The notes below the pieces were generated by a model, which was not told the origin of the DNA, made no database searches, and worked only from the letters and a program-made list of their open reading frames with translations. This document shows positions 9,409 through 21,241 of a stretch of DNA of 21,241 nt, piece by piece. Numbering within the stretch: the stretch's first letter is position 1; each line of letters starts with the position of its first letter. Source of the stretch: a virus. The translations under genes were made by a program, and so were the position numbers. The DNA lies in IMG/VR virus record IMGVR_UViG_3300048838_001160, positions 1-21,241 of that record. One strand, given 5' to 3'.

Positions 9409-9643
9409 TAGCCTCAACCCATCTCCTCCCGAAACGACGGAACCCGTTGTGAATCAGTATCGGATCCACATCCAACTCAACGTCCACCTCGGCCAATAGC
9501 GTCAGCGTGACCTCGGTGAACTTCTCCGCACCCAACTCGATATCAACATCTAGCAAGTTCTCGATCTCTATCCCGTCGAGCCACGCCTTCATGCCACGAC
9601 CCGTCAACCCGTCAGTCACTACTTTCAGCTTGTTTTGTTTCAT
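9401..9643 (-). CDS. Hypothetical beta-rich acidic protein (80 residues)
   Basis: The frame MKQNKLKVVTDGLTGRGMKAWLDG... starts in an ATGA overlap with the large terminase stop and its own stop overlaps the nuclease start, so it is firmly within the operon. The protein is acidic with regular alternating hydrophobic residues (LLDVDIELGAEKFTEVTLTLLAEVDVELDVD). This suggests a small beta-sandwich or barrel. The pattern is reminiscent of small phage proteins that begin with KV.VDG..I....v.v. and follow terminase or capsid genes, but no family can be named. Confidence 0.7.
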   Translation of the reverse strand: MKQNKLKVVTDGLTGRGMKAWLDGIEIENLLDVDIELGAEKFTEVTLTLLAEVDVELDVDPILIHNGFRRFGRRWVEANE

Positions 9644-11178
9644 AACGTCACCAATCCTCTCTCATCGTACACACTGCCACTCTCCTCATTCCGCAGCGCC
9701 CTGTCCAGCGCCATGATCAGCGCCACCATGCCGTCGATCTTCTCCCGGCTCCGCTTCTTGTCCGGCTTGACGTTGCCCGCAGGATCCTGCGTCACCACCA
9801 TATTGTCCGCCATCCACCTCAACACCGGCTGCATCCCGTGGTGGAGGTTGCGCTCCAACACCAACCGCAACAACTCCTTCGTCGGCGAGGCCATGCTGGC
9901 ATACCCCTGCCCGAACTGCACCATCATGTAGCCCATGCTGTCCAGCTGCTGGCTGACCTGCACCGCCCCCCACCGGTCAAACGCGATCTCCTTGATCTCA
10001 ACCACCTGACCCAGGTCGTCAATCTCTTTCAGGATGTGACCGTAGTCGATGACGTTGCCCGGCGTGGCCGTGATGTGGCCGTCCCGCGCCCAGGCGTCAT
10101 ACGGCACGCGGTCCCGCCGCGTCCGCTCCATCATGTTCTCCCTGGGTATCCAGAACCGCGGCACCACCTGAAACGAGCCGTCGTCCATGGGGAACACCAT
10201 CACGAACGCGGCCACGTCACCGGTGCTGGCAAGGTCCAACCCGCCATAGCACGGCCGTCCCTGCAACGCCTCCCAGTCCACCTCGCCCGCGCTGGCCTCC
10301 CAGGCCGCCATGTCCAGCCACCGCTCTTCCTGTTGCGTCCACTGGTCCAGATGCAACCGCCGGAACGTGTTCTGATAGGCCGGCACCTGCCGCGCCTTCT
10401 CAGCCGCGGCCCGCAGATAGTCCTCTTTCAGCGTGATCCCATAGCTGGGATTGGCCTTGGCCCACACCGCCGGATCCATCCAATCGTCGTCCTCGTCGGC
10501 CGCGGCGATGAACGCGTAGTAGCTATCGTCCTGAATCACGCCGTCCAACACCTGCCGCGCATAGGCGTGCTGCTCCCAGCAAATGCTCTGACGGTCATAC
10601 CCCGCCGTGGTGATCGCGATGACCAGCGGTTGCCGGCGCGCGCCGATGCTGGTCGTCAGCACGTCCCACAGCTCCCGGTTCGGCTGCGCGTGCAGCTCGT
10701 CCACCAGCACGGCATGGGCGTTGAGCCCGTGCTTGGTCGGCGCGTCTGACGACAACACCCGAAACACGCTACCCGTCTCGTTAACCACAATCGAGCGTTT
10801 ATACACTTCGGTGAATCTCGACAACGGCGACGCCTCCAGCATCTTCTTTGCCTCGTCGAAGACGATCGCCGCCTGGTCACGGTCGGCCGCGGCGCTGTAC
10901 ACCTCCGCGCCCGGCTCCCCGTCGGCAATGGTCAGGTATAGCCCCAGCCCGGAGACGAACGCGCTCTTGCCGTTCTTTCTGGGCACCTCGATGTAGACCC
11001 AACGGTAGCGCCGCGTGCCGTCCGGCCGCTTCCAGCCGAACACGTCCCGCACAATCCGTTCTTGCCAGTCGAGCAACTTAAACGGCTGCCCCGCCCACTC
11101 GCCTTTCGTGTGGGTCAACGCGTTGTGAAAGAAATTGACGGCGCGCTGCGCTGCGTCATTGTCGCGCGTGTATTTCAT
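9640..11178 (-). CDS. Terminase large subunit (Terminase_1 type)
   Basis: A 512-residue packaging motor. It has an adenine-binding region FKLLDWQERIVRDVFGW at about 33-49, a Walker A variant EVPRKNGKS at 64-72, and Walker B VLVDE at 157-161 with the following LHAQPNRE. The coupling motif region is AITTAGYDRQS at about 188-198. The C-terminal RNase H-like nuclease has candidate acids Asp315 (GGLDLAST), Asp401 (AFDRWGA) and Asp482 (KIDGMVALIMALDRA). It docks on the portal, pumps DNA into the prohead and cuts genome ends. Start and stop both overlap neighbours as ATGA. Length and motifs are full and intact, and resemble HK97/phi-type terminases linked to P27-like small subunits. Confidence 0.95.
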   Translation of the reverse strand: MKYTRDNDAAQRAVNFFHNALTHTKGEWAGQPFKLLDWQERIVRDVFGWKRPDGTRRYRWVYIEVPRKNGKSAFVSGLGLYLTIADGEPGAEVYSAAADRDQAAIVFDEAKKMLEASPLSRFTEVYKRSIVVNETGSVFRVLSSDAPTKHGLNAHAVLVDELHAQPNRELWDVLTTSIGARRQPLVIAITTAGYDRQSICWEQHAYARQVLDGVIQDDSYYAFIAAADEDDDWMDPAVWAKANPSYGITLKEDYLRAAAEKARQVPAYQNTFRRLHLDQWTQQEERWLDMAAWEASAGEVDWEALQGRPCYGGLDLASTGDVAAFVMVFPMDDGSFQVVPRFWIPRENMMERTRRDRVPYDAWARDGHITATPGNVIDYGHILKEIDDLGQVVEIKEIAFDRWGAVQVSQQLDSMGYMMVQFGQGYASMASPTKELLRLVLERNLHHGMQPVLRWMADNMVVTQDPAGNVKPDKKRSREKIDGMVALIMALDRALRNEESGSVYDERGLVTL

Positions 11179-12752: not shown

Positions 12753-14564
12753 TTACTCACCATCCACCTCCTCAACCCGTTCCAGCAGCGCCCGCGCCTC
12801 AGCCACCGCCCTCGCCAACCACCCATCCAACGACTTACCCATATCCGGCAGCAGCCCCAGCGCCCCACCATCAAACTCCGGCGACAACCACCGCTCATTC
12901 GCCTGGAGCAGCCTCTCGGCCACCCTCTTGTTGCCCCAACTATCCCGATAGAAGTCGTACAACGCGTCCAACAAGGAGGCCAACGCCACCACCTCGTCAT
13001 CCCAGCAAATCCCCATTCGCTCGGCCCGTTCGGCCAGCTTATCGGCCGAATCATGCTTGATATACGCATTGCCCCAAGCGTGGTCCACAATCGCCGCCAG
13101 CGTCTCGGCCGGGTCGCCAATGGCCAGGAACTTGTCAAACGACATGTGCATCAACGTCGCCAGCAGTGGCTGCAACTCACCAAAACTGCCGGCCAGGTTA
13201 CTCGTCCGCTCCGACAGCTGCCTGTATAACTCGTCCCGCAAGCCATCGCACAACAACCGTTCCTGCTCGTGCCACGCATTCAGCACCAGGTGCCCCGGCC
13301 CCCGCTCCTCGCCGACGGCCGTCTCACTCCCCTCCGCCACAGCCGCCGCCACAACCCGGCGCGCCGCCTCATACTCCTCATCCGAGACCCAGCCCGCCGA
13401 ATGAAAATAAACCACACCATGACGGCCGTTCGCCTGAAAACGATTTGATTGCCAGTCTCTGTCCGGCGCCGCATGCACTCCAAAATCCGTCGTCCAGGCC
13501 AACCCCAGGTTGTCCGTCATGCCCGCCTCAACCAGCATTTGCAGGCGATCCCGATACGCATATGCCGGCTGCTTGCTCGTCGCCGGTGAAACGTACAACC
13601 CCGGCGGCACGCCCAACTCCTCCGACAGCAATTGGGCCGCCTGGTCGCCAAACGCGATTACCTTGCGATTAAAGCACGTGTGGTTCAGGCAAAACTGGTT
13701 CATCCGCATCGGGCAGCCCTGGCACGTCGGCTGCACCGTCCCCGCCACACCCAGTTCCATTTCAGCCACCACATCCGGCACCTCCTCGCCGGCCCACTTA
13801 AGGGCCGACTTAACATACTCGCGAATGTCGTCGCTGGGCGTCTCCGGGTTGGCCAACACATGCTCAATGAACCATTCCGGCGATCGCGCGCCGGCCCAAT
13901 CGTTCGGCGTCTCATTCCACGGCACACCGTGCGTCAACTGAACCAGCTTCACCACCGGTGCCAACGCCAGCAACTGCCGCTCACTCAACGTGCCCGCCCG
14001 ATTGGCCGCCTGAAGCTCCTGGGGCAATTCCAGCAGCCGCAACCGATTCGCAACTGTCGGCCGCGAAATACCCCACGCCTCGGCCACTTCCCGCTGCGAA
14101 CCCCCCTCAGCCTGCACACGGGCCAGCTTTCTCTGCAACAGCTCCGCCTCCTCGACGGCCGATATATCGCTCCGCTCCCGATTCTCGCTCCACACCGCAT
14201 CCAGCATCTGCTCATCAGTCAGATCAACGATCTGGACCGGCATACCTTCATAGCGGCGGGGATCCCGGTCGCACAAATACCGAAACGCCCGTAGACGCCG
14301 ATGGCCAAACGCCAGCTGCACCCGCAGTCCCACCGGCATTCCCTCTTCACCGATCCGAGCCAGCGCGCCGGCCAGCACATCCCTATCCAGCACTGTGCCA
14401 TCCTCATACACCAGACGGCCGAGCGGCACTTGCATCAGCCCCCGCGTTAGCGGAAAGGCGTCATACTTCGCCTCAATCCTGTCAGCCAGCTCTTCCACAT
14501 CCCCATAAGCCGACCGTACCTGAAACGGGTTATCAGTTATTCTCGACGGATGAACGATTACCAT
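12753..14564 (-). CDS. ParB-like protein with HTH and C-terminal cysteine cluster
   Basis: A 603-residue protein starting MVIVHPSRITDNPFQVR (ATG 14562-14564, GAGG four bases upstream). Positions count from this start. The ParB N-terminal fold ends with FGHRRLRAFRYL (about 86-97), the equivalent of the GERR motif, and is followed by ENRERSDISAVEEAELL (about 127-143), the classic ParB ENxxR.dl...E.A box. The helix-turn-helix GSQREVAEAWGISRPTVANRL lies at about 155-175. A cluster C-x2-C-x7-C-x4-C (Cys 281, 284, 292, 297) in TCQGCPMRMNQFCLNHTCF looks metal-binding. The remaining 300 residues are helical and unassigned. ParB proteins load on parS DNA and hydrolyse CTP; no ParA is visible here, so partition is not proven. 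Candidate sites are the palindromes noted elsewhere. Confidence 0.8.
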   Translation of the reverse strand: MVIVHPSRITDNPFQVRSAYGDVEELADRIEAKYDAFPLTRGLMQVPLGRLVYEDGTVLDRDVLAGALARIGEEGMPVGLRVQLAFGHRRLRAFRYLCDRDPRRYEGMPVQIVDLTDEQMLDAVWSENRERSDISAVEEAELLQRKLARVQAEGGSQREVAEAWGISRPTVANRLRLLELPQELQAANRAGTLSERQLLALAPVVKLVQLTHGVPWNETPNDWAGARSPEWFIEHVLANPETPSDDIREYVKSALKWAGEEVPDVVAEMELGVAGTVQPTCQGCPMRMNQFCLNHTCFNRKVIAFGDQAAQLLSEELGVPPGLYVSPATSKQPAYAYRDRLQMLVEAGMTDNLGLAWTTDFGVHAAPDRDWQSNRFQANGRHGVVYFHSAGWVSDEEYEAARRVVAAAVAEGSETAVGEERGPGHLVLNAWHEQERLLCDGLRDELYRQLSERTSNLAGSFGELQPLLATLMHMSFDKFLAIGDPAETLAAIVDHAWGNAYIKHDSADKLAERAERMGICWDDEVVALASLLDALYDFYRDSWGNKRVAERLLQANERWLSPEFDGGALGLLPDMGKSLDGWLARAVAEARALLERVEEVDGE

Positions 14565-14697
14565 GATCCTCACTCCCACCCGGCCACAGATCCGTATCCT
14601 TCGGCGCCTGTGGCCACGTCCGCGCGATCACCACTACAATCACCGCTGTCCCGACCACCCAGGCCAGACAGAACACGCGCACAATCTCCAACAACAT
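14533..14697 (-). CDS. Small single-pass membrane protein (54 residues)
   Basis: ATG at 14695-14697, with GGAGGGG about six bases upstream, opens MLLEIVRVFCLAWVVGTAVI. The first about 25 residues form one strongly hydrophobic helix (up to VVVIA), followed by a soluble tail RTWPQAPKDTDLWPGG. The frame overlaps the start of the ParB-like gene by 32 bases and ends at TGA 14533-14535. Small single-helix proteins are frequent in phage early operons; role unknown. Confidence 0.6.
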   Translation of the reverse strand: MLLEIVRVFCLAWVVGTAVIVVVIARTWPQAPKDTDLWPGGSEDHGNRSSVENN

Positions 14698-14700
14698 GAT

Positions 14701-15003
14701 TCACCCCTCCAGCGGGAAGGCATACAGCCCCCGCTCAGCCGGCTCCGCCACATACGGCATCTCCACCTGCACCAGCACATACGTCCCCGGATCCAGCTTC
14801 TGCTTCGTGAACTCATCCCCCGTCGTCACCTGCAGCTGCATGTTGTCCGCGTCCAAAACCGCCCACACATCCCGCACCACCAGCGTCACCCGCTCATCGG
14901 CCAGCAACGCCTTGCTCAACGCGCCGTACAACCACTCGGCGAGCGTCCCGGCCACGTCGGCCAGCGGCCTGCTTACGTTCACGGTACTCAGCATATTGCT
15001 CAT
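14701..15003 (-). CDS. Hypothetical protein (100 residues)
   Basis: The frame MSNMLSTVNVSRPLADVAGTLAE... has GGAGG nine bases upstream of ATG and stops three bases before the small membrane protein gene. The N-terminal half is helical (ADVAGTLAEWLYGALSKALL) and the C-terminal half beta-like (VTLVVRDVWAVLDADNMQLQV, GTYVLVQVEMPYV). No family is recognised. It overlaps the arginine-rich end of the neighbouring upstream frame by 110 bases. Here the more protein-like composition is in this frame, so at least the overlap part of the other frame is doubtful. Confidence 0.65.
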   Translation of the reverse strand: MSNMLSTVNVSRPLADVAGTLAEWLYGALSKALLADERVTLVVRDVWAVLDADNMQLQVTTGDEFTKQKLDPGTYVLVQVEMPYVAEPAERGLYAFPLEG

Positions 15004-15226
15004 CGTTCAACGGCCTCCAATCTGTCCTGTAAATGGGCCGGCTCTTCCGCCACACCCCATCCTCATCCTTGTACCAATACCGCCACCGCGGCCAGCGCAA
15101 ATTCCCCTTCTTCGGCCATTCCGTCCACCCGCCCTTGCCCGCCAGCCGAACCGCCGTCACACGGCCGGGCGCAGGTGCGGGCGGCAAGGCGGGCCGCGTC
15201 GTGGGCGGCCGCGCCGAGCCGCCCAC
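14894..15226 (-). CDS. Hypothetical basic protein, start and end uncertain
   Basis: A frame of about 110 residues beginning with GTG at 15224-15226. Its middle (GWTEWPKKGNLRWPRWRYWYKD, then WRKSRPIYRTDWRPLNDEQYAEYRERK) is rich in Trp, Tyr, Lys and Arg and looks like genuine protein, perhaps nucleic-acid binding. Both ends are weak: the start is proline/alanine-rich and the last 30 residues, within the 110-base overlap with the next gene, are arginine-rich low complexity. GAGG is ten bases before the GTG. A frameshift or alternative start linking it to the preceding membrane-protein gene was considered, but no slippery site was seen. Function unknown. Confidence 0.5.
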   Translation of the reverse strand: MGGSARPPTTRPALPPAPAPGRVTAVRLAGKGGWTEWPKKGNLRWPRWRYWYKDEDGVWRKSRPIYRTDWRPLNDEQYAEYRERKQAAGRRGRDARRVVVRRVEQGVAGR

Positions 15227-15240
15227 CGACGAAACAGCCT

Positions 15241-16068
15241 CTACCCGTTTGGGTGCGTCCCATTCACCCCCGCCCGGGGCGCCGGCTCCCGCATCGACTG
15301 CCCTATCGGCATTGGTCGCGCTACCTGCGGCGTCTCCAAAATGTCCGGGCGGCCGTTCCCGTCATTGTCGACCAGCAAGTCGGGCGTATACTGCATCATG
15401 AACCGGATCTGCTCCTCGGTGTAGCCCGCGCTGCGCAGCTCCTTCACCGCATCCATCCACGCCCGCTGATACTCAATCCGCGTCATCGCCGGCGACAACA
15501 ACGCCTGGTGACGCGCCTTGAACCGCACCGCCGTCACCCGCTCCTTCGCCGCCGCCTGCTCCTGTGACCGCGTGTGGTCCGGGTCGCTGCGCACCAGCAG
15601 ATACGTCAACGCCCCCGCCACCAGAGCCGAGATCGGTAACCCATACTCCACCCACATCACCTGCCAGCTCTGCAACGCCTGGCCCCGCTCCACAGCGAAG
15701 AAGGTGATCATGTTCGCCGCCGCAAAAACCAGCCACACCATCTCAATGCTCAGGCCCACCGTCTTCTGGCCGCCGCGCCACCGGCTCTGAATGAACCCCA
15801 GCCCGGCCACTACCGCCGCCACCTCCACCAGGATCGGAAACGCGATCCGGATCCCCGTCAGGATCGACTCCACCAATCCCGACTGGGCCGCAAACGCATA
15901 CGTGGCCGTCTGGCTCAACACCAGCATCACCGCATGAGCCGCCGTAATCACCACCAGGGCCGTCAGCACCAGGTACAACAGCCCCTTCACCGCCTTGCCC
16001 GCATTTTGCCGGCCCTCATCGGCCGTCAGCTCATACATCTCGCTCGAACCACCAAAGAAATCGTTCAC
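15241..16068 (-). CDS. Multi-pass membrane protein with soluble C-terminal domain
   Basis: A 275-residue protein starting at GTG 16066-16068 with GGAG eight bases before it. Four hydrophobic segments are visible at about residues 29-52 (LLYLVLTALVVITAAHAVML), 75-95 (IRIAFPILVEVAAVVAGLGF), 108-125 (IEMVWLVFAAANMITFFA) and 140-160 (YGLPISALVAGALTYLL). The soluble C-terminal 110 residues contain a helical region (RVTAVRFKARHQALLSP, RIEYQRAWMDAVKELRSAGYTEEQI) and a linker DNDGNGRPDI that resembles a calcium-binding loop. No family is named. It is the largest membrane protein of the early operon and a candidate for host takeover or exclusion functions; that is inference from position only. Confidence 0.8.
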   Translation of the reverse strand: MNDFFGGSSEMYELTADEGRQNAGKAVKGLLYLVLTALVVITAAHAVMLVLSQTATYAFAAQSGLVESILTGIRIAFPILVEVAAVVAGLGFIQSRWRGGQKTVGLSIEMVWLVFAAANMITFFAVERGQALQSWQVMWVEYGLPISALVAGALTYLLVRSDPDHTRSQEQAAAKERVTAVRFKARHQALLSPAMTRIEYQRAWMDAVKELRSAGYTEEQIRFMMQYTPDLLVDNDGNGRPDILETPQVARPMPIGQSMREPAPRAGVNGTHPNG

Positions 16069-16079
16069 AATATCACTCC

Positions 16080-16109
16080 TTGACTACGCTGACGGCCGTT
16101 CGCTATACT
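16080..16109 (+). promoter_or_regulatory. Sigma70-like promoter, plus strand, against the operon
   Basis: TTGACT (16080-16085), 18 bases, TATACT (16104-16109) is a good consensus pair reading rightwards, opposite to the surrounding genes. A GC-rich hairpin 30 bases after the expected start site (16139-16171) could end a very short transcript. On the opposite strand TATAGC overlaps the same -10, with TCGACA 18 bases upstream, and could start the membrane-protein gene. Confidence 0.55.
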
Positions 16110-16138
16110 GTGAACAGTCGTCCTTGTCGATGACTAGA

Positions 16139-16171
16139 GGCGCGCCGTCGTTTTGCGACACTCGGCGCGCC
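16139..16171. terminator. GC-rich hairpin between two early genes
   Basis: Two GGCGCGCC octamers (16139-16146 and 16164-16171) pair with each other, and GTCG / CGAC extends the stem inside, leaving a TTTTG loop. It lies five bases past the stop of the 85-residue gene and upstream of the membrane-protein gene. The plus side is followed by a moderately T-rich stretch (GTTCTCATTTC); the minus side is not, so it would work better for plus-strand transcription. Confidence 0.5.
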
Positions 16172-16175
16172 GTTC

Positions 16176-16433
16176 TCATTTCACATTGACCAATGGCAGC
16201 CCCAGCTGCCCATCCAGGGGATGCCGCTGCCCGGGCACCTCCAGATACACGTAACCGGCCGCCATGCGGGTTGACTCAATCACCGCAATGGAAGGTGGAG
16301 GCGACGCGCTGACATGAGTAGTGCCAGGAGCCACCCACACGGCGACCGGCGGGCAGCCGTGACGCTGCTGATAGATCTCCAACGACTTACGGAATTCCGC
16401 GTCGTCCCGAACCTGAAACACATGAAACAACAT
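16176..16433 (-). CDS. Hypothetical protein (85 residues)
   Basis: ATG at 16431-16433 with AGGAGAGATAGCG before it; the longer frame would overlap the upstream gene and starts in low-quality sequence. The protein MLFHVFQVRDDAEFRKSLE... opens with a strand-helix unit (FHVFQVRDDAEFRKSLEIYQQRHG) and then short strands (VAVWVAPGTTHV, SIAVIES, AGYVYLEVP). This is a compact alpha/beta fold of unknown family. It is followed by a GC-rich hairpin. Confidence 0.65.
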   Translation of the reverse strand: MLFHVFQVRDDAEFRKSLEIYQQRHGCPPVAVWVAPGTTHVSASPPPSIAVIESTRMAAGYVYLEVPGQRHPLDGQLGLPLVNVK

Positions 16434-16444
16434 CGCTATCTCTC

Positions 16445-16669
16445 CTACGGCCACATCGCCCGGCGCTTCATCACACTGCCGTCCGGCAACGCCATCGTCA
16501 CCCAGCCCGTACACGGATCCTGCCAGTCGATGTCTACCCGCAACACCTCGGCCGTAAACGCCTCGCCCACGTCCGGCAACACCTGTCGCAGCACATAACT
16601 GTGCTCAACCTGCGGCCGCACCACGAACGACAGCAACGGCTCCTGACGGCCGACCTTCACCGCGCTCAC
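16445..16669 (-). CDS. Hypothetical beta-rich protein (74 residues)
   Basis: GTG at 16667-16669 overlaps the stop of the small membrane-protein gene (GTGA) with GAGG just upstream. The sequence SAVKVGRQEPLLSFVVRPQ... alternates hydrophobic and polar residues and reads like five or six beta strands (LLSFVVRPQVEHSYVL, AFTAEVLRVDIDWQ, GWVTMALPDGSVM). No family is recognised. Confidence 0.65.
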   Translation of the reverse strand: MSAVKVGRQEPLLSFVVRPQVEHSYVLRQVLPDVGEAFTAEVLRVDIDWQDPCTGWVTMALPDGSVMKRRAMWP

Positions 16670-16764
16670 GCCTCATCCTCCTCGTCGATCCAGCCGTGCT
16701 TGAACAAGAACAACGCGATAAACAACGCCAGGCCCACGACTATCACCGTCTGCATCGTTTCCAC
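16666..16764 (-). CDS. Very small single-pass membrane protein (32 residues)
   Basis: GTG at 16762-16764, with GGAGGGG four bases upstream, starts one base after the stop of the previous gene. The product VETMQTVIVVGLALFIALFLF consists of a hydrophobic helix with a short charged tail KHGWIDEEDEA. A start at the ATG at 16755 is possible. Small single-helix proteins like this often regulate larger membrane proteins. Coupled on both sides, so probably real despite its size. Confidence 0.55.
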   Translation of the reverse strand: METMQTVIVVGLALFIALFLFKHGWIDEEDEA

Positions 16765-16765
16765 G

Positions 16766-17008
16766 TCACCCCTCCCCGCCGGCCTGCTTGGCCCGCATCG
16801 CCAGCATGGCCTGCACATGGTCGTCATTCGTCCGGCCGGCCTCCCGCAACACCTTCGCCAGCAGATAGCTGGCCTGATTGTTCGGATCCCGATAGTTCTC
16901 CCGACCCAGCTGCACCAGCGCAGCATAGTCGGCCGCGTGAAGGACAATCGTCACTTTCACATCATCGTCAGAACCCAGCACCTTCTTGTTCGCAACTCCT
17001 CTTGCCAT
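16766..17008 (-). CDS. Putative ribbon-helix-helix protein (80 residues)
   Basis: GGAGG is six bases before ATG 17006-17008. After a basic lead (ARGVANKKVLGSDDD) the segment VKVTIVLHAADYAALVQLGRE, then A-S-Y-L-L-A-K-V-L, has the strand-helix-helix layout of Arc/MetJ (RHH) DNA-binding proteins. The strand residues would be KVTIVL. The remaining 25 residues form a third helix region. If correct it is a dimeric regulator within the replication block. The copy of the 16-bp palindrome at 17033-17048 lies 25 bases upstream of its start codon, a possible target. Assignment is moderate because RHH domains are short and divergent. Confidence 0.55.
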   Translation of the reverse strand: MARGVANKKVLGSDDDVKVTIVLHAADYAALVQLGRENYRDPNNQASYLLAKVLREAGRTNDDHVQAMLAMRAKQAGGEG

Positions 17009-17026
17009 CGTAAACCTCCTCAGTCA

Positions 17027-17434
17027 CTAATGTGTTGGCGCGCCAACACCTGTCTCAACCAATGTCATCCCGGCCAGGTCCTCGCAGAACGGACAAACCG
17101 TCACCCCGGGTGGCAACCGCTCGCCGCAACCATCCACACACACCGGCCACGATTCATACTCCGCCTGCCACTGCCGGCGACGAATCTCCCGGTGGGCCCA
17201 GTCCACAGCGGTCTGGTCCGCGGCCGCCTCAGCCTCAGCCTTGAGCCGGCGCACCATCGCCCCCAACTCGCTGACCGCCGGCATCCACTTCAACTCCCGG
17301 CTCAATGCCTTGGCCGCCTCCAGCACCACCGCCGGTTCCTCATCAGCAAACGCCAGCAGGTAGGCTGACTTGCGGGCGGTGTCATCACCCCGCGGTGGGT
17401 AAACGGCCGTCAGATACTCATACCACTTGCTCAT
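17027..17434 (-). CDS. Putative replication protein / helicase-loader-like, with zinc motif
   Basis: A 135-residue protein, MSKWYEYLTAVYPPRGDDTARKS..., starting at the second of two tandem ATGs because GGAGG has a four-base spacer to it; this overlaps the initiator stop. The helical N-terminal 70 residues (AYLLAFADEEPAVVLEAAKALSRELKWMPAVSELGAMVRRL) resemble phage replication partners that come after an O-like initiator. Such proteins load the host helicase (lambda P role). The C-terminal part contains CVDGCGE and CPFC at about 100-120, a four-cysteine zinc site. Loader function is inferred from order, not from a known ATPase motif. The gene's last codons form copy 3 of the 16-bp palindrome. 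Confidence 0.55.
   Translation of the reverse strand: MSKWYEYLTAVYPPRGDDTARKSAYLLAFADEEPAVVLEAAKALSRELKWMPAVSELGAMVRRLKAEAEAAADQTAVDWAHREIRRRQWQAEYESWPVCVDGCGERLPPGVTVCPFCEDLAGMTLVETGVGAPTH
17033..17048. repeat. 16-bp palindrome TGTTGGCGCGCCAACA, copy 3
   Basis: Perfect palindrome (18 bp here, flanked by G and C) at the very end of the 17027-17434 gene, where it is read in a different frame from copies 1 and 2. Shared sequence is therefore at DNA level. Confidence 0.7.
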
Positions 17435-18216
17435 CATGCCTCCGCAAAATAGCTCGTCCAGTCCTCGACCGTCTGAGGACGGCCGTTTTCAACAACGGCA
17501 CCTTTGTCCAGCTCCGCCAGGGCATACGGCACAACCGATCGCGGCCGGAAGGGCGTCTTGCCCTCGGCCAACATCCTTTGGCGCACGGCTGCCATGGCCT
17601 CAAACGCCGCGTCCTCATCCCGCCCCACCCGCACCCACAACTGGTTCACCGGCACAAACCATTCTCGTGCCCACTCATCATCATCCCTAGGTGGTGTTCT
17701 CCCAATCAACTGTTGCCATCGGGTCAGGATCCGCCTGCCGGCGTCGATGTGGTCGCCCACGACTTCATTGACGGTTCCATCCTGACGATTCATTGATGAT
17801 TCAGAATGAAGATTTGGGTGATCGTGTGTCACCCCTACGGGTGATCCTGTGTCACCCCCCGGGTGATCGTGTGTCACCCCTAGGGGTGTTCGTGTGTCAC
17901 CCCTGAGTGATCGTGTGTCACCCCTGGGGTGATCCTGTGTCACCCCTAAACGCTGCTTCGACAACCAGAAGCCGTTGGTCATATCTTTGCCCGATTCCGC
18001 TCGCCGCTGTCGAGTCAACCAGCCCGCCTCTTCCAGCTCTTTCACCACCCGAATCACCGTGCGGCGCGACAAGCAGCACTTCATGGCCACATGCTCATAG
18101 CTCGGCCAGCAATACCCGTGGTCGTTGGCATGGTCGGCCAACGCCAGAAGGACAAACCGTTGTGTGATGTTGTCCGGTCCGGCCTTCCAAACCGCTGTCA
18201 TAAGTTCAATGCTCAT
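17434..18216 (-). CDS. Replication initiator, lambda O-like (HTH domain plus internal iterons)
   Basis: A 260-residue protein. The N-terminal domain, from FVLLALADHANDHGYCWPS through LSRRTVIRVVKELEEAGWL (about residues 20-66), is a winged helix-turn-helix of the HTH_36 kind. Such domains open many phage initiators. Residues 91-134 are encoded by six tandem 20-base repeats and translate to low-complexity peptide (variants of GVTHDHP and RGDTR). Their spacing is not a multiple of three, so the DNA, not the peptide, is conserved. The C-terminal about 100 residues (ILTRWQQLIGRTPPRDDDE ...) are helical and may recruit the partner encoded next. The start ATG overlaps the upstream stop. The design, initiator protein with the origin inside its own gene, is that of lambda O. 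Confidence 0.85.
   Translation of the reverse strand: MSIELMTAVWKAGPDNITQRFVLLALADHANDHGYCWPSYEHVAMKCCLSRRTVIRVVKELEEAGWLTRQRRAESGKDMTNGFWLSKQRLGVTQDHPRGDTRSLRGDTRTPLGVTHDHPGGDTGSPVGVTHDHPNLHSESSMNRQDGTVNEVVGDHIDAGRRILTRWQQLIGRTPPRDDDEWAREWFVPVNQLWVRVGRDEDAAFEAMAAVRQRMLAEGKTPFRPRSVVPYALAELDKGAVVENGRPQTVEDWTSYFAEA
17816..17946. repeat. Six-iteron array, probable replication origin
   Basis: Six copies of about GGGTGATCGTGTGTCACCCC start at 17816, 17839, 17861, 17884, 17905 and 17927, so the period is 21-23 bases, close to two helical turns. Each copy is itself an imperfect inverted repeat, GGGTGA and TCACCC around an 8-base centre. Copies 2 and 6 have C for G in the centre; copy 4 has TGTTC for TGATC and copy 5 GAGTGA. 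Located inside the initiator gene. Confidence 0.85.
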
Positions 18217-18437
18217 CCTGATTCATCCTTGTCGTCGTTCATCGCGGCAATCAGCCCCCGCCTGGTCGCTCCCGCCGCCGCAATGATGTCCGCGATAAAC
18301 GGCTCCACCTCTTCTAACGTCGACACGTCCAGCAGGCTGGCCAGCTTCTGCGTCAGACGGACAATCCGCACCTGACGCGCGATAGCATCCTCATAAAACA
18401 GCAGCTGGCTGTCAGCTATCCTGCGCCGCGTTTGCAT
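18213..18437 (-). CDS. Hypothetical helical protein (74 residues)
   Basis: The frame MQTRRRIADSQLLFYEDAIARQ... overlaps the upstream membrane-protein gene by 26 bases and the initiator start by four. It is mostly helical with charged and hydrophobic residues alternating (RIVRLTQKLASLLDVSTLEEVEPFIADIIAAAGATRRGL). It could be a small coiled or helix-bundle regulator. No motif is recognised. Confidence 0.6.
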   Translation of the reverse strand: MQTRRRIADSQLLFYEDAIARQVRIVRLTQKLASLLDVSTLEEVEPFIADIIAAAGATRRGLIAAMNDDKDESG

Positions 18438-18786
18438 CGTGGCTCACCTTGCCCAGCAACGACCGCGACCGTAGGCTGTCCAGATACGCCGTCGCCGCCT
18501 TGACCCCGCCCGCGACCAAAAAACCGCCCTGCACCATCACCCAGGTCGTCATGTCGGCATCGCCGAGCCAAACAACCAGGAGAAACAGCAACAGAACGGT
18601 CTCAATGCCGATCGCCCGCCGTACAAACTCCCGCCGCTGCCAGGCCGGCGTACGGAAGGCCATGTGCTCCAACCACACCGCCCCGGCAGTCAACAGAAGA
18701 AAAACCAAGTAGGCGTCAATTTTCTCCAACGTAATCACAAGCTCTCCAATGTCTGCTACAGTGTTCGTATCCTTGTCCACATCCAT
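18412..18786 (-). CDS. Small integral membrane protein, first gene of the early operon
   Basis: A 124-residue protein, MDVDKDTNTVADIGELVITLEKI. Three hydrophobic segments are at about residues 26-42 (YLVFLLLTAGAVWLEHM), 60-76 (IGIETVLLLFLLVVWLG) and 80-100 (MTTWVMVQGGFLVAGGV). A basic-charged loop RTPAWQRREFVRR lies between the first two. A short soluble tail follows. It opens the leftward operon across from the integrase. No Shine-Dalgarno is obvious; the upstream region instead has a 12-bp perfect hairpin (18793-18824). Membrane proteins at this position often act in superinfection exclusion, but there is no direct evidence. Confidence 0.7.
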   Translation of the reverse strand: MDVDKDTNTVADIGELVITLEKIDAYLVFLLLTAGAVWLEHMAFRTPAWQRREFVRRAIGIETVLLLFLLVVWLGDADMTTWVMVQGGFLVAGGVKAATAYLDSLRSRSLLGKVSHDANAAQDS

Positions 18787-18792
18787 CCGGCT

Positions 18793-18824
18793 CGTGTGGG
18801 GCAGTTAAGGAGCTGCCCCACACG
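18793..18824. promoter_or_regulatory. Perfect 12-bp inverted repeat in the leader of the early operon
   Basis: CGTGTGGGGCAG (18793-18804), an 8-base loop TTAAGGAG, CTGCCCCACACG (18813-18824). Without a T-run on either side and directly before the first leftward gene, it is more likely an operator or a leader hairpin controlling the early transcript than a terminator. On the minus strand the loop is CTCCTTAA. Confidence 0.6.
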
Positions 18825-18853
18825 ATGACCCTCATAAACACCAACAAGATTAG

Positions 18854-18863
18854 AACATATGTT
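18854..18863. promoter_or_regulatory. Operator-like palindrome AACATATGTT
   Basis: Ten-base perfect palindrome overlapping the integrase -35. A related palindrome TAACATGTTA (20297-20306) lies at the start site of the excisionase promoter. The pair may bind the same regulator. Confidence 0.45.
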
Positions 18864-18890
18864 TGCATTTCTCATCTTACCTGATATAGT
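18863..18890 (+). promoter_or_regulatory. Integrase promoter (sigma70-like)
   Basis: TTGCAT (18863-18868), 16 bases, TATAGT (18885-18890), about 30 bases ahead of the integrase ATG. Confidence 0.65.
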
Positions 18891-18920
18891 GCGCGTCCAG
18901 CTTGGTCCGAGGTCGCAGTT

Positions 18921-19838
18921 ATGGCGTTCGCAGATCCATCTGGACGGCCGTGGTCCGTGGCCGTCCACAATGCCGTCTTTATCCAGGGGGTGTGCACCGT
19001 CTCTCCCCGCACCGTTCGCTGGCTCGAGCAGTCGCTCGAATACCTGTTACGATTTGCCAATTGCGAAGTGGGGGATATTTCCGCTGAGGTTGTCGCCCTC
19101 TGGCACCGGGCGCTGCTGGAGTATGTTTCTCCGACTACGGCCAATAACTACCTGCGTGGTGTGCGGGTCGTCATGGCCCGGCTCGTAAACCGTGACCTGC
19201 TCGATGACAACCCCGCCGCCGTCGTCCCCTACCACCCCCAGCCGCCCCACCGGCCCGAAGCCGTTACCGTCGAAACCTATCACGCCCTGCTGGCCGTTGC
19301 CGGCCTGCGCGATGCTGCAATCGTGTCTTTGCTGTGGGGCACTGGATGCCGAATCGGCGAGATCGCCACCATCTCAACTGAGACGATGGACTTGTGGCAA
19401 GAAAATGGGGAATATCGCTTTGCCGCTGCTGTGGTGGGGAAATACCACCGCCGCCACGGTCTGGGTCATGCGACCCGCTACGTGTACGCCAATGACCAGG
19501 AGGCTGAGGCCCTGCGGGCCTGGCTCGTCGCCCGGCCGGCTACCTCCAGCCCCGCCCTCTTCACCTCGCGTGATGGCCGGCAGCCCATCCCCAACAGCAC
19601 CATTCAATCAGCGCTGCGGGCTCTCAAGGATCGCGCGGGTGTCGATTCAGTCTGCAACCCCCACGCCTTCCGGCATGCCTTTGCTTATCGCAAGCGCCGC
19701 GAGGGCTACCCCCTGGAGTGGATCTCCGAATGGCTGGGCCATAGCGATCCGGCCTTCACCGCCGCCATGTACGGCGACAAGACCGAACGAGAAATCCGAA
19801 ACCGCTACTTTGCGCGACCGCCCCGCAATCGAGATTGA
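18921..19838 (+). CDS. Tyrosine recombinase / phage integrase
   Basis: A 305-residue site-specific recombinase. The N-terminal half (VSPRTVRWLEQSLEYLLRFA ... TTANNYLRGVRVVMARLV) is the SAM-like core-binding domain. The catalytic residues of the C-terminal domain are all present: Arg144 (GCRIGE), Lys174 (VVGKYHRR), His248 and Arg251 (HAFRHAFA), His274 (WLGHSDP) and nucleophile Tyr284 (AAMYGDK). It has no clear N-terminal arm-binding domain beyond the first 25 residues. GAGG is eight bases before ATG. It reads toward the attachment region, which begins right after its stop. It integrates the phage into a tRNA-Gly gene, judged from the adjacent tRNA fragment. The promoter is noted separately. 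Confidence 0.95.
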   Translation: MAFADPSGRPWSVAVHNAVFIQGVCTVSPRTVRWLEQSLEYLLRFANCEVGDISAEVVALWHRALLEYVSPTTANNYLRGVRVVMARLVNRDLLDDNPAAVVPYHPQPPHRPEAVTVETYHALLAVAGLRDAAIVSLLWGTGCRIGEIATISTETMDLWQENGEYRFAAAVVGKYHRRHGLGHATRYVYANDQEAEALRAWLVARPATSSPALFTSRDGRQPIPNSTIQSALRALKDRAGVDSVCNPHAFRHAFAYRKRREGYPLEWISEWLGHSDPAFTAAMYGDKTEREIRNRYFARPPRNRD

Positions 19839-19916
19839 GCAGTCCCACTGGGGTGGGAGGGGGGAGTGGAGACCGCGCCGATCAGACCGCCGAACGGCCG
19901 CGGAAAGTAGCGGTTC

Positions 19917-19968
19917 ACAGCAGCTTCCCAAGCTGTTATCACGGGTTCGAATCCCGTATGCCGCTCTA
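19917..19968 (+). other. tRNA-Gly(CCC) 3' fragment, att core
   Basis: The sequence contains an anticodon arm GCAGC-TTCCCAA-GCTGT (anticodon CCC, Gly), a T arm ACGGG-TTCGAAT-CCCGT, the acceptor half ATGCCGC and discriminator T as in bacterial tRNA-Gly. Upstream no matching GCGGCAT or D arm is found; only GCGG at 19900 pairs. It is thus the 3' half of a tRNA gene, as carried by phages that integrate into tRNA-Gly. Confidence 0.85.
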
Positions 19969-20035
19969 GTATCAGGTTGTTAAAGTGCGCCTAAGCAACT
20001 GCGACAACTGATGCGTAGCGGTTCGGCCGCGACAG

Positions 20036-20060
20036 AGTGGCCAGCTAGATCCTGGCCACT
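20036..20060. terminator. Hairpin downstream of xis / att region
   Basis: AGTGGCCAG, 7-base loop, CTGGCCACT: perfect 9-bp stem, followed on the plus strand by TTGGTCTCTT. It lies 20 bases past the excisionase stop on the minus strand and could end transcripts from either side, better from the left. Confidence 0.5.
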
Positions 20061-20080
20061 TTGGTCTCTTCCGACCACCG

Positions 20081-20278
20081 CTACCCTTTAGGCAAATCGA
20101 GTTCCAGTCCCATGTACTCAGCTGCCTTCTGCAAATCCTCTTCCTTGATTGCATACGGCGACTTCTTGCCCAGCCCGGTTCTCCGCGCTGGCAAAAGACC
20201 GTCCTGGATCCACTGCCAGACTGTCACTCGACTGACCTTAAGCAGCTTGGCCGTTTCAGAAACTGAAAACTCTTTCAC
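20081..20278 (-). CDS. Excisionase-like HTH protein (MerR/HTH_17 type)
   Basis: A 65-residue protein starting with GTG at 20276-20278 (VKEFSVSETAKLLKVSRVTVWQ), with GAGGAGG eight bases upstream. The longer frame reaching 20338 uses a TTG that is in fact the -35 hexamer of a consensus promoter, so it was rejected. The winged helix-turn-helix EFSVSETAKLLKVSRVTVWQW followed by IQDGLLPARRTGLGKKSPYAIKEEDL is the usual excisionase/AlpA-like domain. It lies across the att core from integrase, as expected of a recombination directionality factor. It could also be a regulator of int. Its stop codon overlaps an arm-type GTAGCGGT site. Confidence 0.85.
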   Translation of the reverse strand: MKEFSVSETAKLLKVSRVTVWQWIQDGLLPARRTGLGKKSPYAIKEEDLQKAAEYMGLELDLPKG

Positions 20279-20308
20279 GGTAGCTGCCTCCTCAAATAAC
20301 ATGTTAGC

Positions 20309-20338
20309 ATTATACCGGCTGTTAAGTTTGTTTGTCAA
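20309..20338 (-). promoter_or_regulatory. Consensus sigma70 promoter of the xis gene
   Basis: On the minus strand TTGACA (20333-20338), 18 bases, TATAAT (20309-20314), both perfect consensus. The expected start site at about 20302 falls on the palindrome TAACATGTTA (20297-20306), a likely operator. Confidence 0.85.
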
Positions 20339-20381
20339 TCACTAAACGGACCAATTACCCTACGAAATCGATGCCCCAGCT

Positions 20382-20508
20382 CTTTGCCCACCAATCCACG
20401 GGGCTTTGCCCACCAATCCATTGCCTTTGCCCACCAATGCGCTACCCTTTGCCCACCAATGCACGACAGGCTTTGCCCACCAATGCGCCAACGGCCGTTT
20501 GGTGGGCA
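20382..20508. repeat. Array of five CTTTGCCCACCAATGC repeats plus one inverted copy
   Basis: Direct copies start at 20382, 20404, 20425, 20447 and 20471 (the first two end in CC, the others GC), with periods of 22, 21, 22 and 24 bases. An inverted copy TTGGTGGGCA is at 20499-20508. The last direct copy and the inverted one can form a 10-bp stem enclosing ACGGCCGT, ending just before the Shine-Dalgarno of the gene at 20521. No protein is convincingly encoded here. Confidence 0.85.
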
Positions 20509-20520
20509 TGAGGAGGAACT

Positions 20521-20991
20521 ATGAATCACGCCGACCAACATGCGATGGAGCAGATCAAGCCAAACCACACCGTCCGGAACGTCCTGATCGGGCTGGCAGC
20601 TGTGGCAGCCATCATTGGTGCGGTCTACCTGGCGTTTTCCTTTGGGCGTGGCGACATTACCGTGACGGTTGGTGACGGACTGCCCGAAGTCCGGAATGAC
20701 TGTCCCGACTGCGGCCGGGAAGGAGTTGTCGGCACCTGGTCATCAGAAATTAACGGCGCTACCCTCGTGTTTTCAAACGACGGCACATTCACCCTGCAAC
20801 GCGGCGAGGGGGTACTGAGCGGGACGTTTGAGCGTTCGGATGACGAGCTGTGCCTCGTTGCGACAGACGGCAGTGCGACTGCAGGATACTGCTACGATTA
20901 CGTTCAGGCTGTCGATGCGATGAAGCTAGATGATGTCACTTACATCCGCGGAGGCTCCGGCATGCCCTCCGGCGGCTCCGGCAGCCCGTAG
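20521..20991 (+). CDS. Membrane-anchored extracytoplasmic protein (moron-like)
   Basis: A 156-residue protein with GAGGAGG four bases before ATG. Residues 19-42 (RNVLIGLAAVAAIIGAVYLAFSF) form one transmembrane anchor with a short cytoplasmic N-terminus, so the rest is extracytoplasmic. CPDCG gives a cysteine pair at about 62-65. The domain GTWSSEINGATLVFSNDGTF and then GVLSGTFERSDDELCLV resembles lipocalin-like small beta-barrel domains that read GxW....L.F..DGTF...G.Y. The end is a GGSG linker-like tail. It is the only plus-strand gene besides integrase, isolated by repeats, and may be expressed in the prophage state. Its last 52 bases overlap the opposing gene. Confidence 0.75.
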   Translation: MNHADQHAMEQIKPNHTVRNVLIGLAAVAAIIGAVYLAFSFGRGDITVTVGDGLPEVRNDCPDCGREGVVGTWSSEINGATLVFSNDGTFTLQRGEGVLSGTFERSDDELCLVATDGSATAGYCYDYVQAVDAMKLDDVTYIRGGSGMPSGGSGSP

Positions 20992-21176
20992 GCCACCGCC
21001 CGCAGCTCCACGTCGAGCGACGCCATCTCACGGATGGCCTTCTCGTCGGCTTGCTTCACCGGCCACTTGGCGCCCACGCCGTAGACGATGCGATACATCG
21101 TCCTGGTCAGGCGGTCATAGGCGGCCGCGTACTGCGCCTCAATGAGCGCCTGCTGGTCAGATAGCTGCTGATTCAT
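20940..21176 (-). CDS. Hypothetical protein closing the right-hand minus-strand module
   Basis: A 78-residue protein, MNQQLSDQQALIEAQYAAAYDRL..., with GGAG four bases before ATG. The longer frame overlaps the upstream gene and was not used. It is helical (YAAAYDRLTRTMYRIVYG, KQADEKAIREMASLDVELRAVAYG), with a proline tail LPEPPEGMPEPPRM. Its start overlaps the end of the truncated gene at the window edge, so it belongs to a leftward operon coming from outside. Its tail is antisense to the end of the plus-strand membrane gene. Likely the last gene of the late (tail) module of the phage; function unknown. Confidence 0.6.
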   Translation of the reverse strand: MNQQLSDQQALIEAQYAAAYDRLTRTMYRIVYGVGAKWPVKQADEKAIREMASLDVELRAVAYGLPEPPEGMPEPPRM

Positions 21177-21241
21177 CGGTCTCCGCCCCCACAATCCGAT
21201 ATGCCACCGTGCTGGTCCACACACCGTCAATTCGTTGCGTC
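21157..21241 (-). CDS. C-terminal end of a phage gene (cut by window edge)
   Basis: Only 27 codons are seen: ...IDGVWTSTVAYRIVGAETD to a TGA at 21157-21159. The frame is open to the edge and overlaps the start of the next gene by 20 bases. The fragment is too short to identify. A beta-strand character and its position before the terminal small gene would fit a tail or baseplate protein. Confidence 0.5.
   Translation of the reverse strand, partial: TQRIDGVWTSTVAYRIVGAETDESAAI

Follow-up and report, generated by a model that had tools for sequence, protein, structure and literature searches.

Most temperate phages have no annotated replication origin. An origin placed inside the initiator gene is already established for lambda (gene O), the Stx phages, P22 (gene 18), SPP1 (gene 38) and the plasmid pSK41 (rep). 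Lambda iterons are 19-bp inverted repeats at a spacing of 20-24 bp, and the Stx phages carry six iterons (PMC7466680). In SPP1, oriL comprises direct repeats and an AT-rich unwinding element inside gene 38, which encodes the origin-binding protein (PMC6316719), and in pSK41, of the RepA_N type, four Rep boxes lie centrally in rep, the N-terminal domain of the protein binds and the linker-coding part of the gene is the ori (PMC5703833). Among plasmid initiators with a winged helix, TrfA and RepE bind a single strand of the repeats in their unwinding elements (PMC4081077). Here we describe a viral locus at which positions 17769-17946 very probably constitute an intragenic theta origin, made up of iterons read by the initiator and an unwinding element that is itself conserved in sequence.

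The window (the whole stretch of DNA analysed, an IMG/VR virus record of 21,241 bp) also encodes a terminase, a portal, an integrase and a ParB-like protein, as judged from Pfam and PHROG searches. The ParB-like protein is large and lies at 12753-14579 on the minus strand (phrog_4715, 1.7e-15). The features discussed below are the following, with the iterons numbered in gene order.

17434-18216, minus strand: initiator gene, 260 aa, HTH_36/O-like replication initiator (Pfam, PHROG)
17962-18216, minus strand: winged-helix DNA-binding domain, residues 1-85 (predicted structure)
18025-18066, minus strand: recognition helix, residues 51-64, containing R52 (predicted structure)
17776-17943, minus strand: origin-encoded protein linker, residues about 92-147, predicted mostly disordered
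17927-17946: iteron 1, 19/20 to consensus
17905-17924: iteron 2, 19/20 to consensus
17884-17903: iteron 3, 19/20 to consensus
17861-17880: iteron 4, 20/20 to consensus
17839-17858: iteron 5, 19/20 to consensus
17816-17835: iteron 6, closest to the unwinding element, 20/20 to consensus
17764-17815: predicted DNA unwinding element, the least stable 50 bp of the gene
17807-17814, minus strand: second-array unit 0, AATCTTCA, directly after the last iteron, one mismatch to AAYCRTCA
17794-17801, minus strand: second-array unit 1, AATCATCA, exact, frame 1
17783-17790, minus strand: second-array unit 2, AATCGTCA, exact, frame 0
17769-17776, minus strand: second-array unit 3, AACCGTCA, exact, frame 2
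17027-17437, minus strand: 136-aa open reading frame with a 4-bp overlap between its start and the initiator stop (coordinates)

The initiator combines an N-terminal winged helix, matched by HTH_36 (PF13730, E=7e-17), with O-like PHROG matches (PHROG 1032, 391, 8540, 4617 and 270, ‘replication initiation’, 3e-23 to 8e-21), the two marks of the HTH_36/O-like phage initiators. Its Pfam matches up to E=0.1 include neither the lambda O family nor the RepA_N domain (PF06970), and by sequence it lies outside both; its fold similarity to the Rep structures 5kbj and 4pt7 is weak (E about 6e-3). In the predicted structure residues 1-70 are mostly at a pLDDT of about 95, with helices at 3-12, 17-29, 40-47 and 51-64 and wing strands at 67-71 and 81-85, and the linker has 10-residue block means of 41-62 across residues 91-150, disorder that is expected of a peptide merely tolerating an origin.

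The arrangement of the locus is that of the lambda ori (gene O) and the P22 ori (gene 18), namely a winged-helix-type initiator with iterons mid-gene and an unwinding region directly 3' of them, and, as in lambda, the iteron array consists of inverted repeats. The window origin would work like that of lambda, with an initiator that belongs to the HTH_36 O-like group instead of the lambda O Pfam family. The resemblance to SPP1 is one of layout, SPP1 differing in its second origin (oriR), and RepA_N plasmids differ in the domain and fold comparisons given above. The nearest homologous initiators are the ‘DNA replication protein O’ of the SfV, mEp044, ST64B and LESphi3 type (HTH_36 phages and phage-plasmids), whose genes hold intragenic dyad repeats of a sequence that varies between phages, followed in most by the second array that is seen in the window. 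None of 18 HTH_36 phage and phage-plasmid records (L012-L029) carries an origin annotation, yet most of them show the two-part array.

The iteron consensus reads GGGTGATCGTGTGTCACCCC on the plus strand and GGGTGACACACGATCACCC in the sense of the gene. The first-pass annotation had described six near-identical copies at a spacing of 21-23 bases within an HTH gene, each a dyad, with a peptide frame that varies among copies, and all of this was borne out: the start-to-start spacings are 23, 22, 23, 21 and 22; each unit is a dyad, albeit an imperfect one (GGGTGA-N7-TCACCC, with 6-bp arms that are perfect in four of the six units); and the copies occupy two reading frames (phases 0,1,0,1,1,0), encoding GVTHDHP- and GDTRSP-like peptides. 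Its statement that the spacing is not divisible by three is true of four of the five intervals only, since one interval is 21. Within the whole 21,241-bp record these six are the only matches to the iteron at up to three mismatches, and the reversed pattern has none at the same tolerance. The number of units and their internal dyads had also been said to differ from lambda; this did not hold, because lambda iterons are inverted repeats and the Stx phages have six (PMC7466680), so that neither property sets the window apart and we reject both as novelties.

Constraint on the repeats was assessed by shuffling synonymous codons within the gene 60 times, which preserves the protein and its codon usage. 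Shuffled versions of the window gene contain on average 14 repeated 14-mer pairs (maximum 37) and 5.3 short dyads (maximum 11), whereas the gene itself has 194 and 19. Across 115 non-redundant homologous genes from phages, phage-plasmids, viral contigs and prophages, 107 beat all 60 shuffles for repeats, in the same place after the winged helix, and the pooled count is 4987 repeat pairs where 401 are expected. Lambda O, the positive control, gives 15 pairs against 0.2, and just one of 108 control ORFs from the same loci passes. Dyads alone are a weaker signal (1077 against 454 in the 115 genes, of which 37 exceed every shuffle). In the family, 318 of 561 offsets are in frame, more than expected, which indicates that the arrays are shaped also by constraint on the peptide or by in-frame duplication and that the peptide is not wholly free. 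A chance origin of the repeats is rejected, given the excess over shuffles and the lack of other matches in the contig. DNA-level constraint in a conserved place is established by these counts, and the selection on DNA that had been proposed earlier stands: the repeats are lost when only the protein is preserved, the copies fall in two frames and, in the comparison with related phages that had been suggested, the repeats are kept while the peptide and even the iteron sequence drift. At short range this drift could not be followed, because there is only one close relative and its initiator gene carries a single change, silent and outside the array. This relative (L007, IMGVR_UViG_3300048588_000412) is a longer contig of 30.7 kb, 97% identical to the window (14701-21181 against 9537-3016); it is the sole match in an exact iteron search of IMG/VR and the only close one among four loci in a single-protein viral scan.

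Immediately 3' of the iterons, at 17769-17814, lies a second array that the first-pass annotation missed while placing the six iterons correctly. The three exact units of the window are in three different frames, and most of the 18 relatives read have a short repeat directly 3' of their iterons. In an unbiased count of 8-mers over 66 genes the top three, GAACCAGT, AACCAGTC and ACCAGTCA, occur in 36, 35 and 32 genes, compared with 11, 9 and 6 after shuffling. We then fixed the pattern, AAYCRTCA or AAYCAGTCA, before the scan of the genome collection, from which 49 unseen, non-redundant genes form the held-out set. The discovery set has 116 copies against 15.3 expected and the held-out set 79 against 11.5 (maximum 18). 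At least two copies are found in 42 of 66 and 32 of 49 genes, the latter against 1.7 expected (maximum 4), and at least two exact copies are absent from 17 of the 49; the window itself has three exact copies and one imperfect copy. Among the 32 held-out multi-copy genes, 26 place their units in more than one frame, the reversed pattern has two copies in the 49 genes, and none of the control ORFs from the same loci has at least two copies. The array is one-sided (195 sense copies against 23 antisense), its commonest spacings are 17, 11 and 12 bp, and in 64 of 86 genes its first copy begins 2-4 bp beyond the last iteron-arm motif.

Held-out Pseudomonadota contribute 28 genes with at least two copies and 17 without, and the array is also present in single held-out genes of Actinomycetota, Campylobacterota, Verrucomicrobiota and Candidatus Hydrogenedentota. 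It accompanies neighbours annotated as P (a Psychrobacter phage, a Shewanella plasmid) as well as helicases (ZF40, a Microbulbifer plasmid) and, being indifferent to the type of neighbour, goes with the initiator or a host factor and not with the loader. Two forms exist, the 9-base AACCAGTCA and the 8-base AACCRTCA, which separate completely by initiator residue 3 (Met3 versus Ile, Val or Thr) and almost completely by Met10 and Lys25, but not by the recognition helix; this is one deep clade split, fully confounded with ancestry. In contrast to the window, the AT-rich tract of lambda O lacks AAYC(A)RTCA, and a single copy is present in P22 gene 18. The motif conserved in the unwinding element, common to most of the related phages examined, appears to be undescribed: we found no description in the open-access literature, though a subscription paper may hold one.

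The second array coincides with the least stable DNA of the gene. By nearest-neighbour calculation the stability minimum of the window falls at gene nt 426, inside the second array and within the lowest 0.5% of the contig, and across 86 genes the mean profile has its minimum (z=-1.58) 20 nt past the point at which the second array begins. For lambda, this calculation gives a minimum at O nt 462, just beyond the annotated iterons, and for P22 one within the annotated ori; the z value is -2.81 in both the window and lambda O and -2.68 in P22 gene 18. A low-stability element thus lies directly beside the iterons, as in lambda, and since the three minima are alike, layout and stability agree with known origins. 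GC skew has no inflection at the array.

Iteron sequence covaries with the winged helix. In pairs of relatives below 60% identity, we compared each winged-helix residue with repeat similarity, allowing for overall identity, and residue 52 is the best predictor (partial correlation 0.30; the next residues reach 0.13-0.14), ranking top in the discovery set and in the held-out set each taken alone. The best 8-residue window is 49-56, in the recognition helix. At a 45% cut-off R52 is first in the full and discovery sets and fifth in the held-out set. GGTG-type half-sites are present in 53 of 65 genes with R52 and in 2 of 50 with other residues at this position. Residue 52 changes 16 times on a poorly resolved tree that offers only 3 supported independent contrasts for R52, about 2.8 of them agreeing (p=0.25); R52 and iteron type change together, and ancestry is the weakness of the link. 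The link, itself a direct observation, favours binding by the winged helix without proving it.

The comparative support for an origin therefore comprises the conservation in place in 107 of the 115 genes, the least stable DNA abutting the repeats and a recognition-helix residue that tracks the iterons, and the earlier interpretation, that of a phage origin to which the HTH protein binds, is, apart from the claimed differences from lambda, well supported at the level of sequence comparison. From these patterns we infer binding, opening, the strand and protein involved in reading the second array, and helicase loading. The origin would be embedded in the linker-coding part of the phage's own initiator gene, and the winged helix of the initiator would bind the six dyads, probably with one dimer on each ~22-bp unit. 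Once wrapped, the initiator complex could then open the adjoining low-stability DNA bearing the AAYC(A)RTCA repeat, and one exposed strand of the second array may be held by the initiator or used for loading of the replicative helicase.

Other readings of the iterons are far less probable. The HTH protein might bind the array as an operator to repress or time its own transcription, with replication starting elsewhere; the covariation of protein and DNA suits any binding role and iterons bound inside the gene could block RNA polymerase, but the array lies about 270-400 nt into the gene and not at a promoter, the family has after its iterons a stability minimum with a conserved motif that an operator does not need, and the identical layout is seen in lambda and P22 at known or annotated origins, so that we consider this improbable. 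A role of the array as a partition (parS-like) site for the ParB-like protein of the phage is very improbable: such a protein is encoded and inverted-repeat arrays can serve as centromeres, but in relatives of diverse kinds the array sits within the initiator gene, and its sequence follows the recognition helix of that gene's product. A repetitive peptide linker with incidental DNA repetition is scarcely credible and was rejected on codon shuffles and frame use, for although the linker is repetitive in many relatives and in-frame spacings are in excess, peptide-preserving shuffles lose the repeats, the window iterons occupy two frames and the second array three, and the linker is predicted to be mostly disordered.

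Within the reading as an origin, we put forward, at slightly less than even confidence, that O-like HTH_36 phages have a two-code origin, in which variable iterons are read by the recognition helix and combined with a near-constant array in a single orientation. R52 would read GTG half-sites, and the array at the unwinding site would be recognised, in single-stranded or duplex form, either by a conserved host factor or by a conserved surface on the initiator. The separation of the 8- and 9-base forms by residues 3, 10 and 25, and not by the recognition helix, would fit the initiator surface. Single-strand binding by TrfA and RepE is the nearest tested precedent for such reading of the second array.

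The open reading frame at 17027-17437 lies where relatives encode a helicase loader or helicase, and we regard it as an unproven, positional candidate for a helicase loader. Its C-terminus is cysteine-rich and zinc-ribbon-like (Pfam Zn_Ribbon_1 at E=0.05 only); it has no recognisable family in Pfam or PHROG and no phage homologue, and family and homologue searches found no recognisable helicase or loader next to the initiator gene. In the close relative L007, a 467-aa fusion of a ParB-like protein and a DNA methyltransferase (9553-10956, plus strand) lies downstream of the replication genes.

The two-part signature provides a simple rule for finding origins in a large initiator family across Proteobacteria, with a reach, in single examples, to Actinomycetota, Campylobacterota, Verrucomicrobiota, Hydrogenedentota and a cyanophage. 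The family also provides a natural series in which the DNA target of a winged-helix initiator shifts against a fixed unwinding element, and in which one may ask whether winged-helix phage initiators read the single-stranded DNA of the unwinding element as TrfA and RepE do (PMC4081077).
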